Source: a virus
Direction: 5' to 3' (one strand)
Virus record (IMG/VR): IMGVR_UViG_3300034012_000466
Location: 1-34,918 of that record
DNA length: 34,918 nt
This document shows positions 1-34,849 of the stretch, one piece after another. Positions within the stretch are counted from its first letter, which is position 1; each line of letters starts with the position of its first letter. The translations under genes were made by a program, and so were the position numbers. The notes beneath the pieces are model-generated. The model saw only the letters and a list, made by a program, of their open reading frames with translations. It had not been told where the DNA came from and did not search any database.

Positions 1-14
1 TGGAGATCAAGTGA
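1..14 (+). CDS. ERF single-strand annealing protein, last codons only (partial)
   Basis: The window opens inside the final codons (Glu-Ile-Lys-stop) of the same gene that is complete at 33488-34036. Its TGA overlaps the ATG of the exonuclease by one base (TGATG), exactly as at the other end. Only the stop-proximal fragment is present, cut by the contig edge. Confidence 0.8.
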
Positions 15-619
15 TGGAACAGCGCAGCCCAGAATGGTTCGCTGCGCGTCTCGGGTCAGTCACTGCATCCAGGGTATCGGATGCTCTGGCTGGCCCAGAC
101 ACCGCAGCCCGTAGGAACTACCTCGTACAACTAGTAACAGAGCGTCTGACAGGCCAGCAACAGGAGTCATTCACCAACGCAGCAATGCAATGGGGGACAG
201 ACACAGAACCTCTTGCGCGTGTTGTGTATCAAGCCACGCTGAAAGGAGATGCGTTTGTTTCAGATGCTCCGTTTGTCAAGCATCCAACAATTGAATGGTT
301 TGGCGCATCACCGGATGGTTATGTCGAGGACGGACTGCTAGAGATCAAATGTCCAAACAGCACGACACACATCGACTACCTGATGGCTGGCAAGGTTCCA
401 ACCAAGTACCAGAAGCAGATGCTGGCTCAGTTAGCTTGCACAGGCAGGGAATGGTGCGACTTTGTGAGCTTTGATCCTCGAGTCCCAGAGCATCTGCAAC
501 TGTTTGTCGTGCGATTCCAACCCAAGAAAGAGGAGATCCAGAAGCTGGAAGAAGGAGTGCAGAAGTTCTTGGATGAAGTCAACAAAGCAATGGAGAAACT
601 GAATGCCAGCAAAGTATGA
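14..619 (+). CDS. YqaJ-type (lambda exonuclease-like) recombination nuclease, copy A
   Basis: A 201-residue protein of the YqaJ/lambda exonuclease superfamily. These nucleases resect one strand of double-stranded DNA ends to load an annealing protein. Family features visible are RSPEWFAARLGSVTASR at the N-terminus and a catalytic core with Asp101 (SPDG) and Glu110-x-Lys112 (LEIKCP). The ATG at 14 overlaps the ERF stop as TGATG; a GTG one codon earlier is the less likely start. It pairs functionally with ERF and the small SSB-like protein as a recombination module. Copy B at 34036-34641 differs at about nine residues, all before residue 112. Confidence 0.9.
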   Translation: MEQRSPEWFAARLGSVTASRVSDALAGPDTAARRNYLVQLVTERLTGQQQESFTNAAMQWGTDTEPLARVVYQATLKGDAFVSDAPFVKHPTIEWFGASPDGYVEDGLLEIKCPNSTTHIDYLMAGKVPTKYQKQMLAQLACTGREWCDFVSFDPRVPEHLQLFVVRFQPKKEEIQKLEEGVQKFLDEVNKAMEKLNASKV

Positions 620-827
620 TGTTGTTGCCGCGACTGGAACCTACACCGCCAAAGACGGTTCCGAGAAGAAGTCTTGGATGAAGATCGGATCAGTCATCCA
701 GACTCAGAAAGGTCTGAGCTTGAAGCTCAACGCTGTCCCGGTTGGTTGGGATGGTTGGGCAATCCTGGCTGAACCGAAAGAAGCACCGAAACCCAAGGCA
801 GACTACGATGACGATCCACCTTTTTGA
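603..827 (+). CDS. Small SSB-like protein with an SSB-type acidic C-terminal tip, copy A
   Basis: A 74-residue protein that starts 17 bp inside the exonuclease 3' end, with GGAG about 7 nt upstream of its ATG. The body looks like a compact beta-rich fold (VVAATGTYTAKDGSEKKSW, then KIGSVIQTQKGLSLKL). The last residues are DYDDDPPF, which closely match the acidic DDDIPF tip that bacterial SSB proteins use to recruit partner enzymes. It is too short for a full classical SSB, but a minimal OB-like strand set is possible. Position in the ERF-exonuclease operon supports a role in single-strand DNA handling. The SSB-like call is inference from the tip and context. Confidence 0.6.
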   Translation: MPAKYDVVAATGTYTAKDGSEKKSWMKIGSVIQTQKGLSLKLNAVPVGWDGWAILAEPKEAPKPKADYDDDPPF

Positions 828-30008: not shown

Positions 30009-30554
30009 TTAATCGACAGCGACAGGTCTATAGATTTCCTTTATACCCAGCAGTTGACCCCTAGCTTCCGGGGTGCAGTCCCGTCCGTCTGTGGCGATAT
30101 GGTGATCCCAGATATCTCTCAGCCTAGTGTCTTGCTTGACACCTCTCCAGAGCAGCATGACAGCCTGTGCTGACTTTGGGTGCTTTGCCCAATGCAACGG
30201 ATCGTATGCTGGTGTCCTGATCTGTGCTACAGCAGACTGGATGAGCTTCTGGCCTTCCGGAGTGATCTCCTTGGCTGGAGGTGGCAGCGCGGTCTTGTGC
30301 TCTGGTCGGTTGAACTGCTTGCACAGACGGATGAACTCTGCAAGCGCAGGTGGCCACTCAGGAGGGTTCTCAGCTAGAGACGCCAGCGCAGCACGAATGG
30401 CATCAGGGTTAGCTGATCGCAGGAACTGCTCCCAGGCTGCCGACAGATCAGACCATGATTGATCTGACACATTGAACACAGCTTTGGTCTTGTTGCTTCC
30501 AAACAGCGTCTCAAAACGGAACAGAATCCTCTGGAAGTACGGGAACTTGTCCAT
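30009..30554 (-). CDS. Replication protein P-like (possible helicase loader partner)
   Basis: A 181-residue protein. The first half (SDLSAAWEQFLRSANPDAIR; ASLAENPPEWPPALAEFIRL) has the pattern of lambda P-type replication proteins, whose C-terminal parts bind the host DnaB helicase. It follows the DUF1376-type initiator, overlapping it by 44 bp, as lambda P follows O. GGAG at 7 nt precedes the ATG. No Walker motif is present, so it is not a DnaC-type ATPase. Moderately sure. Confidence 0.6.
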   Translation of the reverse strand: MDKFPYFQRILFRFETLFGSNKTKAVFNVSDQSWSDLSAAWEQFLRSANPDAIRAALASLAENPPEWPPALAEFIRLCKQFNRPEHKTALPPPAKEITPEGQKLIQSAVAQIRTPAYDPLHWAKHPKSAQAVMLLWRGVKQDTRLRDIWDHHIATDGRDCTPEARGQLLGIKEIYRPVAVD

Positions 30555-31263
30555 TGCTCGTCTCCATGTCGATGGTGTCGAAACTTGAAAATCTTGCTTT
30601 CCAACTATCGTCTTTGCGCTGCTTCTCTGTCACAGCACGTTGATTGCGAACCCAGTTCTTCCATGTTGCAAACCAATCAGCTTTTACGCCTTTAGAACCT
30701 GGGACTGCAATCCAGTAGTCGCAGAACACTTCAAAAACTTTTTCAGGCACAAGATCAGGTCTTTCGCTCCTACAGAACACTTCCCAATCAGGTGGCAACG
30801 TGTCAATTGAAAGGCGCGAGCCTTTACTACTACTACGTTTAGTAGTAGTAGTTGGTTCTTGGTTATTGGTTACTGGTTTATGGTTATTGGTTAGTTGAAC
30901 ATCTGTTGAGCCTGTGTCTAACACTTGTTGAACAGGTGTTGAACTAGTGTTCTTCTTGCGTTCAGCAGATGCCTTGCCAGCGTTGCTTCTCTTGTTGACA
31001 ATAGCCTTGTACTCAGCGATTTCCTTGTCGCATCTTGTATGCTTCCAAGCACCGTCTTCTAGCCTGAAGTAAGACTCCAAAATGAGCCTGACCGTACCAG
31101 CGTCTATACCGACCTGGAAGGCCAAAACATCAACTTTGTCTGGGAGTGGGCGCTCACTGTCGTAGTACATCCAAAGCAAACGCAGATAGGCCATTGACTG
31201 AGCATCTGTCAGCCTCGATGTGGCCTTTAGGAAGTCACCAATGTGGTGCTGGTAGTAATGCAA
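30511..31263 (-). CDS. DUF1376-type replication initiator
   Basis: A 250-residue protein. Residues 1-90 match the DUF1376/YdaU domain of phage replication initiators (YYQHHIGDFLKATSRL; AYLRLLWMYYDSERPLPD). A polar linker (~95-145) is encoded by the iteron-like repeats, and the C-terminal domain (PPDWEVFCRSERPDLVPEKV; GVKADWFATWKNWVRNQ) resembles those of O-like proteins. The protein ends PEDSVPF, like an SSB-type tip. The start is TTG with AGAGGAG at 6 nt, buried in a 13-bp stem. Confidence 0.8.
   Translation of the reverse strand: MHYYQHHIGDFLKATSRLTDAQSMAYLRLLWMYYDSERPLPDKVDVLAFQVGIDAGTVRLILESYFRLEDGAWKHTRCDKEIAEYKAIVNKRSNAGKASAERKKNTSSTPVQQVLDTGSTDVQLTNNHKPVTNNQEPTTTTKRSSSKGSRLSIDTLPPDWEVFCRSERPDLVPEKVFEVFCDYWIAVPGSKGVKADWFATWKNWVRNQRAVTEKQRKDDSWKARFSSFDTIDMETSNGQVPVLPEDSVPF
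30826..30951. other. Putative replication origin: iteron-like repeats inside the initiator gene
   Basis: Three elements lie side by side. First is an 11-bp perfect inverted repeat at 30826-30852 (ACTACTACTAC, 5-nt loop). Second are six 7-bp repeats NNTGGTT at 30851-30892. Third are five 11-bp repeats resembling GAACANNTGTT at 30897-30951. Periods of 7 and 11 are not multiples of 3, so protein repeats do not explain them. Lambdoid phages keep their origin inside the initiator gene in the same way. Confidence 0.75.
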
Positions 31264-31367
31264 AACAGTCTCCTCTGGAGGACAACCTCAGGGTGAGAAT
31301 TCCGAGGTGGGCCACCCAGTGCAGGGCAGATGTACGGGCCTGAAGCCGTCCGCTAGAGGAGACTGTT
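31264..31367 (-). ncRNA. Structured leader RNA with sequestered ribosome-binding site
   Basis: 31264-31276 and 31355-31367 are perfect 13-bp inverted repeats enclosing 78 nt. The 3' arm contains AGAGGAG, the ribosome-binding site of the replication initiator. Inside, 31285-31289 can pair with 31304-31308, and 31334-31337 with 31346-31349. An alternative 8-bp pairing of 31305-31312 with 31372-31379 crosses the closing stem. A switch, attenuator or thermosensor is possible. The rest of the gap to 31416 shows nothing else. Confidence 0.7.
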
Positions 31368-31416
31368 CCAAGCCCACCTTATGCGCTTCTCACGGCGCAG
31401 AACAATCTTACAACGC

Positions 31417-33585: not shown

Positions 33586-34036
33586 CCTTTCAGCGGTAGT
33601 CGAGGCTGTCATTGACGGTCTGAACAACAACGGGATCGCTCTGATCCAGCAGACGCATGAGTGCGAGTCTGGTGTCATCGTAGAGACATTGTTGATACAT
33701 GAGTCCGGTGAGCAGATCAGCGGAGGTCGGCTCCACGTTCCTGCAAGCAAACAGGATGCTCAGGGATACGGATCGGCTCTGACCTATGCCCGTCGCTACA
33801 GTTTGATGGCAACCACTGGCATCGCTCCAGAGGATGATGACGGTAATGCTGCCAGCAAGAAACAGGATCTAAACCCTGAAGTGATCGCACAGATCATCCT
33901 CAACACTCAGACGATGGATGACCTCAAGTCCTGCTATGCAAAAGCCTTCAAGCAGTTCCAGGGTGATCAGGATGCTCTGGCAGTGATTGAGGACGCAAAG
34001 AACAAGCGTAAGGCTGAACTGATGGAGATCAAGTGA
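33488..34036 (+). CDS. erf: ERF-family single-strand annealing protein
   Basis: A 182-residue protein. Family features are HFKSKYADLSAVVEAV near residue 26, and the hallmark GSALTYARRYSLMATTGIAP at residues 95-114. ERF proteins anneal single strands made by the exonuclease and can circularise or recombine phage DNA. AAGGA at 7 nt precedes the ATG at 33488. The C-terminal 60 residues are charged. Its TGA overlaps the exonuclease ATG. Confidence 0.92.
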   Translation: MKQIASALVKAQREFGPALKTSRNPHFKSKYADLSAVVEAVIDGLNNNGIALIQQTHECESGVIVETLLIHESGEQISGGRLHVPASKQDAQGYGSALTYARRYSLMATTGIAPEDDDGNAASKKQDLNPEVIAQIILNTQTMDDLKSCYAKAFKQFQGDQDALAVIEDAKNKRKAELMEIK

Positions 34037-34641
34037 TGGAACAGCGCAGCCCAGAATGGTTCGCTGCGCGTCTCGGGTCAGTCACCGCATCCAGGGTGTC
34101 GGATGCTCTTGCTGGCCCGGATACAGCATCCAGACGCAACTACCTCGTCCAGCTTGTCACAGAGCGACTGACAGGCCAACAGCAGGAGTCATTCACCAAC
34201 GCAGCAATGCAATGGGGAACAGACACAGAACCTCTAGCGCGTGTTGTGTATCAAGCCACACTTGAAGGTGATTCGTTCGTTGAGGAAGCACCATTCGTAA
34301 AGCATCCAACTATAGATTGGTTTGGTGCATCACCTGACGGATTCGTCAACGATGGATTGGTCGAGATCAAGTGCCCCAACAGCACGACACACATCGACTA
34401 CCTGATGGCTGGCAAAGTTCCAACCAAGTACCAGAAGCAGATGCTTGCTCAACTGGCTTGCACAGGCAGGGAATGGTGCGACTTTGTGTCGTTCGATCCT
34501 AGAGTCCCAGAGCATCTACAGTTGTTTGTAGTGCGGTTCCAACCCAAGAAGGAGGAGATCCAGAAGCTGGAAGAAGGAGTGCAGAAGTTCTTGGATGAAG
34601 TCAACAAAGCAATGGAGAAACTGAATGCCAGCAAAGTATGA
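34036..34641 (+). CDS. YqaJ-type (lambda exonuclease-like) recombination nuclease, copy B
   Basis: The second allele of the 14-619 gene, with the same length and catalytic residues (Asp101, Glu110-x-Lys112). Changes from copy A include Ala31Ser, Lys77Glu, Ala80Ser, Asp84Glu and Tyr103Phe, all conservative or surface-type, while residues after 112 are the same. This copy is preceded by the complete ERF gene. The pattern says two natural variants, not sequencing errors. Confidence 0.9.
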   Translation: MEQRSPEWFAARLGSVTASRVSDALAGPDTASRRNYLVQLVTERLTGQQQESFTNAAMQWGTDTEPLARVVYQATLEGDSFVEEAPFVKHPTIDWFGASPDGFVNDGLVEIKCPNSTTHIDYLMAGKVPTKYQKQMLAQLACTGREWCDFVSFDPRVPEHLQLFVVRFQPKKEEIQKLEEGVQKFLDEVNKAMEKLNASKV

Positions 34642-34849
34642 TGTTGTCGCGGCTACTGGAACCTACACCGCTAAGGATGGTTCCGAGAAGAAGTCTTGGA
34701 TGAAGATTGGATCAGTCATCCAAACCCAGAAAGGTCTGAGCTTGAAGCTCAACGCTGTCCCGGTTGGTTGGGATGGTTGGGCTATGCTGGCTGAACCGAA
34801 AGAAGCACCGAAACCAAAGGCAGACTACGATGACGATCCACCTTTTTGA
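34625..34849 (+). CDS. Small SSB-like protein with acidic tip, copy B
   Basis: Same 74-residue protein as at 603-827, with one visible change (WAML for WAIL) and an unchanged DYDDDPPF tip. It keeps the 17-bp overlap with the exonuclease and the same GGAG site. Conservation of the tip between diverged copies supports its importance. Confidence 0.6.
   Translation: MPAKYDVVAATGTYTAKDGSEKKSWMKIGSVIQTQKGLSLKLNAVPVGWDGWAMLAEPKEAPKPKADYDDDPPF

Follow-up and report, generated by a model that had tools for sequence, protein, structure and literature searches.

The window (the whole 34,918-nt stretch of DNA analysed here, IMG/VR virus record IMGVR_UViG_3300034012_000466) carries on its minus strand a gene whose product contains the DUF1376 domain PF07120 (Pfam; E 2.4e-19, 69.9 bits against a cut-off of 30.1). 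The PHROG labels of the product, primosomal protein and replication initiation protein, agree with this, and with the earlier note on this DNA, which had read the gene as a DUF1376-type initiator. In a related locus (L307; MW202520.1), the gene behind a DUF1376 homologue carries the annotation 'replication protein P', an arrangement supporting an O/P-like role for the DUF1376 gene. The TTG at 31263 is the sole in-frame start downstream of a TGA. This weak start had been counted towards a regulatory switch; it proved typical of the family described below, where TTG and GTG are frequent, but it is not diagnostic. The two ends of the window (11-827 and 34033-34849) each carry a YqaJ recombinase gene and its neighbour, in copies that are nearly but not fully identical; a population variant at the termini of a circularly permuted genome might explain this.

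The 153 nt that separate the start of the initiator from the upstream gene hold a stem, a Shine-Dalgarno sequence (SD) and a crossing 8-bp match. Re-reading the sequence confirmed that the 13-bp stem (P2 in Table 1) is perfect, with 78 nt between its arms, that AGAGGAG sits in its 3' arm 6 nt ahead of the TTG, and that 31305-31312 can pair with 31372-31379 (AGGTGGGC/GCCCACCT; P1). The predicted minus-strand fold (-73.4 kcal/mol) is more stable than each of 200 dinucleotide shuffles (-55.3±4.3 kcal/mol; z -4.2). Stem, SD and crossing pairing are real and belong to a larger conserved RNA, a leader of about 135 nt (31264-31398, minus strand). Its 5' hairpin H0, the pseudoknot PK2, the helix P3, a second partner for one P1 strand (giving the helix AP) and a promoter were absent from the earlier note. 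Besides the CGGAA listed in Table 1, invariant unpaired bases include A31382 and a CCG around 31335-31337.

Table 1. Features of the initiator locus and of its leader RNA (positions in the window)
Feature	Position	Strand	Basis or remark
-35 box TTGCAA	31428..31433	minus	inside 3' end of upstream ORF; position conserved in the family
-10 box TAAGAT, 17-nt spacer	31405..31410	minus	family-wide position
H0, 5'-terminal hairpin GCGCC-GUGAGAA-GCGC	31383..31398	minus	stem covaries (GC, AU, GU and CG, UA, UG)
PK2 5' strand, the H0 loop GUGAGAA	31387..31393	minus	covaries with 31293-31299
P1 5' strand AGGUGGGC	31372..31379	minus	pseudoknot helix; double changes at 5/7 pairs
AP 5' strand GGGCUUGGA	31367..31375	minus	part of the P1 strand plus next bases; second partner
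P2 5' strand AACAGUCUCCUCU, anti-SD arm	31355..31367	minus	covariation/conservation
P3 5' strand GGACGGCUUCAGG	31339..31351	minus	RNAalifold and subtype-A pairing
AP 3' strand UUCAGGCCC	31336..31344	minus	in minimum free energy (MFE) fold of nascent transcript in 54/56 leaders; permutation test
P4, small hairpin GCCC-UGCACU-GGGU	31314..31327	minus	3 pairs, 97% paired, no double change
P1 3' strand GCCCACCU	31305..31312	minus	pairs with P1 5' strand
CGGAA, invariant, apparently unpaired	31300..31304	minus	56/56 distinct leaders
PK2 3' strand UUCUCAC	31293..31299	minus	covaries with the H0 loop
P3 3' strand CCUGAGGUUGUCC	31280..31292	minus	RNAalifold and subtype-A pairing
P2 3' strand AGAGGAGACUGUU, holds SD AGAGGAG (31270-31276)	31264..31276	minus	conservation; SD unpaired ~1e-4 in full-length nested fold
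DUF1376 replication initiator	30511..31263	minus	TTG start; Pfam PF07120; PHROG labels

The promoter of the window is weak when taken alone: its -35 and -10 boxes match the consensus at 8 of 12 positions, under the 9/12 cut-off of our promoter scan, which does not list it, and the -10 box has an equal-scoring register 2 nt away. The claim of a promoter thus rests on the family. Of 54 distinct upstream regions, 52 have their best sigma70-like -10 box placed so that it ends 4-7 nt (mode 5) ahead of the leader; promoter scores average 8.7/12, compared with 7.1 in shuffles. As the promoter stands at a fixed distance across the family, transcripts should begin at H0, the predicted start in the window being the first G of H0 (31398).

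For comparison of leaders we took the 80 best relatives of the initiator in IMG/VR. The leader of the window was found in three of them (L001, L002 and L004), and in a fourth, L003, the leader is clearly homologous but its P1 differs (GCAGGUC/GACCUGC). Pattern searches on the conserved parts yielded 61, then 71, then 72 stretches (the lists overlap), so that more than 50 distinct homologues are found among IMG/VR phages; they fall into subtypes A (window-like) and B, and 56 distinct leaders are the basis of most counts given here. The leader runs up to the start codon, which mostly follows CUCAC by 28-30 nt.

The leader helices and both pseudoknots, P1 and PK2, are conserved with covariation. 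Over H0, P1, PK2, P2/P3 and P4, the 39 distinct leaders of subtype B have 98.8% of their cells paired; pairing falls to 30-43% in controls with slid partners. Double changes occur there at 15 pairs and in 100 cells (shuffle mean 29; 0 of 500 shuffles as high). RNAalifold, run unguided on the mixed alignment, also recovered H0, P2 and P3. A covariance model built from subtype B alone, with only helices H0, P2, P3 and P4, recovered all 15 subtype-A leaders, the window with 65.3 bits (E 1.8e-13), and had no match in 89 other loci picked from the DUF1376 searches. Matches of the model to the reverse strand (23-41 bits) were excluded as inverted-repeat symmetry. In subtype A alone, whose alignment was fitted to the B model, 98.5% of cells pair and double changes are found at 20 of the 31 modelled pairs. 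The loop of H0 and its partner read GUGAGAA/UUCUCAC in 35 distinct leaders, GUGGAAA/UUUCCAC in 11 and otherwise in 10, with double changes at three PK2 pairs; in the near-identical leaders L090 and L171 the loop and its partner have changed together. The SD stem noticed at first thus covaries, with compensatory changes, in the leaders of related phages, and so withstands the refuting comparison that the earlier note had named.

Long inverted repeats beside a replication gene could also be a DNA-level element, such as an origin hairpin or a mobile inverted repeat. We hold this to be very improbable. The leader helices contain 145 GU cells against 4 AC cells, indicating that the sense RNA is the conserved molecule under selection; moreover, the promoter keeps its offset and the SD always lies within P2.

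The earlier note had proposed that the leader RNA buries the ribosome-binding site of the initiator. This was borne out across the family: P2 is conserved, and in the full-length nested fold the probability of the SD being unpaired has a median of 0.001 over the 56 leaders. A different picture emerged for the proposed competition between folds. P1, the 8-bp helix that crosses the SD stem, forms a pseudoknot with it, and the two are conserved jointly, so they are not rivals; what P1 competes with is AP. The segment that offers the second partner to the P1 strand lies just 3' of the 5' arm of P3. A candidate AP helix exists in 56/56 leaders and has 3-7 nt in common with P1 in most of them (0-2 in a few). 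It is part of the MFE fold of the nascent transcript of about 67 nt in 54 of the 56, and as the transcript grows it is kept in the nested MFE until nucleotide 125 of 132 (median). The mean helix score of AP is 6.44, against 5.61±0.13 for permuted and 4.26±0.14 for shuffled partners. In subtype B the 3' strand of AP scarcely varies and AP accordingly shows no covariation, so that the case for AP in the predicted folds is drawn from the contrast between subtypes A and B and from folding.

When AP was forced, the median probability of the SD being unpaired was 0.38 (0.27 in the window), and it exceeded 0.5 in just 19 of the 56 leaders. In full-length RNA, the fold with P2 and P3 is better than the AP fold by 10.2 kcal/mol (median), as computed from RNAfold nested folds, which ignore the P1 and PK2 pseudoknots. 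With the OFF fold ahead by some 10 kcal/mol, either an activator or purely kinetic expression would be needed. The same stability, together with the commonness of weak TTG/GTG starts, would fit a static attenuator, in which P2 merely keeps translation of the initiator low and P1, PK2 and AP are aids to folding; likewise, P1 and AP could both belong to a single three-way junction that does not switch. Low expression, however, would not call for two conserved pseudoknots and a strand with two possible partners, and we regard a static attenuator as possible but on the whole unlikely.

We consider it likely that the conserved cis-acting leader ahead of the replication initiator is a translational switch whose default fold is OFF. 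The leader would start at its own promoter and end at the start codon of the initiator. Once finished, it would adopt a compact double pseudoknot made of H0, P1, PK2, P2 and P3, in which P2 would hold the SD in 11-13 pairs and translation would therefore be off. During synthesis, the strand that later forms P1 would pair first in AP, and AP would be the favoured nested fold, with a more open SD, until the leader is almost complete. AP is incompatible with full P1 and, judged from the connectivity of the strands, would for steric reasons not easily coexist with completed P2 and P3. Because AP would exclude the finished fold and leave the SD more open, the swap from AP to P1/PK2/P2/P3 is the likely switch. 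We thus infer that AP forms in cells and represents the ON state; the swap would then give each transcript a short window for translation, which a trigger, be it a ligand, a protein or an RNA acting at H0/PK2 or at P1, could stretch or shorten. To our knowledge, how the timing and level of the replication initiator are controlled in tailed phages is poorly known beyond a few models.

By their N-termini, most genes that follow the leader resemble DUF1376 genes. Among the others, those with enough readable sequence likewise lead to replication initiators, of several other families. An HTH_36/O-like initiator stands behind the leader in L105, where it was directly tested, and apparently in L113 and L117, which look alike; further non-DUF1376 initiators follow it in L092, L097 (as the second gene), L187 and L208. 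In L105, L113 and L117 an HNH endonuclease-like gene lies between leader and initiator, as if it had been inserted at the start codon and used the leader. What the leader accompanies is therefore a function rather than a single protein family, and this speaks against the DUF1376 protein itself as its binder.

This bears on the possibility that the leader is an operator, one fold of which is held by an RNA-binding protein of phage or host, perhaps autogenously by the initiator. The leader adjoins the gene it would control, and the level of initiator would be a natural variable for feedback. The same leader nevertheless precedes several unrelated initiator families, and related DUF1376 genes have quite different leaders, making self-binding by DUF1376 unlikely; a shared host protein is a possible binder. 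Overall, we judge control by a protein to be rather improbable.

L001 has virtually the same leader sequence as window positions 31264-31416, yet the best segment of the initiator protein there is 65% identical, which suggests mosaic exchange at this module. BLAST searches with the leaders found no match among named phages and plasmids. Seventeen pattern matches in bacterial genomes all lacked the H0 stem and were set aside as chance. The covariance model had no match in 399 genomes from the order to which G001 belongs (titled Caballeronia; it contains L167), a search run without a positive control. In the named DUF1376 phages examined (from Moraxella, Acinetobacter and Pseudomonas, the Methylophilaceae phage P19250A and a spring metagenome phage), the gene lies within a tightly spaced operon that leaves hardly any or no room for a leader, and none was found. 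The leader is, therefore, known so far from uncultivated phage contigs only.

Searches of Rfam 15 with the leader and with the whole window gave nothing credible, in line with the suggestion that the form is undescribed. We found no paper linking DUF1376 with an RNA motif, in a literature search that covered subscription journals and recent catalogues of structured RNAs in part; an earlier description is therefore possible. The leader does have the riboswitch trait of a covarying, pseudoknotted domain coupled to an expression platform, the SD in P2. If it were a metabolite riboswitch, H0, P1 and PK2 would form the ligand pocket, P2 would be the platform, and the initiator would be tied to a metabolite of the host. 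The compact domain with its invariant unpaired bases (CGGAA, A31382 and the CCG) and the single function across unrelated initiator families speak for this, as does a modular platform, the SD stem here and a terminator in a sister class described below. The leader matches no riboswitch class of Rfam, however, its invariant unpaired bases are few, and the identified genes under its control are replication or HNH genes, none of them metabolic, so that nothing points to a ligand. We regard a riboswitch as conceivable, with the chances clearly against it.

In the IncI-alpha/I-complex and IncL/M plasmids, the SD of the initiator gene repZ or repA (ColIb-P9; Rfam PK-repZ) lies in a stem, and the loop of a 5' hairpin forms a pseudoknot upstream of it. 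Asano and Mizobuchi (1998), cited in PMC10724649, reportedly described the molecular switch in the pseudoknot control of repZ. This pseudoknot switch of I-complex initiators (PMC10724649) is the closest known logic to that proposed here. As in PK-repZ, the SD of the initiator is sequestered in a stem (P2), and a 5' hairpin loop pairs upstream of it (PK2). The leader differs in sequence and fold, has one pseudoknot more as well as a strand with two alternative partners, and belongs to phages rather than plasmids; the PK-repZ model of Rfam did not match it at E values up to 10. Unlike PK-repZ, it has no conserved leader peptide: if transcription starts at H0 there is no room for an SD before it, and a mini-frame from the GUG of the H0 loop, read by eye, is not kept in all leaders. 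Nor was an antisense RNA seen.

The likeness raises the further possibility that the H0 loop is targeted by a trans-acting RNA, as in I-complex copy control, with the loop variants as compatibility or superinfection groups. The pair L090/L171, differing jointly in loop and partner, would fit, and in I-complex plasmids, which follow the same logic, single loop changes can alter specificity and decide compatibility (PMC10724649). Compensatory drift would explain such loop swaps equally well, no trans RNA was identified, and the antisense strand is unconstrained, as the ratio of GU to AC cells attests. The promoter scan saw no antisense promoter-like site in the window, although it also misses the sense promoter. 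We think a specificity element of this kind quite unlikely.

Several other known RNAs invite comparison. In the phage lambda cIII mRNA (Lambda_thermo), two alternative folds set the accessibility of the SD. The window leader, in contrast, contains pseudoknots, is much more stable, would act on replication instead of lysogeny, and has no Rfam match. An RNA thermometer was judged unlikely, with nested folds of -57 to -64 kcal/mol in the leaders listed and 11-13 bp in P2. In HDV-like ribozymes the strands run in the order P1 5', P2 5', P3, P1 3', P2 3', to which the strand order of the leader is similar. A ribozyme was judged unlikely: there is neither an Rfam match nor a sign of a catalytic core, and the conserved H0, paired through PK2 to the core, lies upstream of P1, where cleavage would remove it.

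The position ahead of the initiator is also taken by other RNAs. The int-alpA RNA (RF02996) or look-alikes of it lie directly upstream of many DUF1376 genes (among L005-L080; for example, L008:2909-2984, L012:2851-2919 and L028:2910-2978); several matches exceed the Rfam cut-off and others fall short of it. The position suggests control of replication genes. int-alpA RNA differs from the leader in sequence and topology, has a terminator-like U run, and was not detected in the window leader.

A second leader class, undescribed and marked by the motif CCAACNUCCGAAAGGAUGAG, was observed at L222:1033-1134, L235:1084-1186 and L284-L305; none of the seven loci tested matched Rfam. The genes behind it are those of replication initiators, small HNH-like genes or others. 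Its topology is that of the window RNA, namely a 5' hairpin, a loop pseudoknot, a P1 pseudoknot and a long closing stem, but its closing stem ends in a U run and so makes a terminator. The same topology with a terminator as output supports P2 being the output platform of the window leader; the class may be either a true homologue or a look-alike.

The leader family seems to be an RNA switch, so far undescribed, for the onset of phage replication, paralleling the RNA control of plasmid initiators. If so, an RNA switch common to phages with unrelated initiators would be a shared control point, and if the terminator class works alike, one regulatory architecture would serve two output platforms, as in riboswitches. 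At its most speculative, and with little confidence, one may picture the window RNA, its terminator sister and the int-alpA-like RNAs as interchangeable cassettes for replication control that sense a common signal of the infection state, or the transcripts of other such cassettes by way of the H0 loop, as compatibility or superinfection groups. In 15 sequences of the terminator class, 22 of the 34 pairs show double changes, with a covariation score of 0.518 compared with 0.173 in shuffles.
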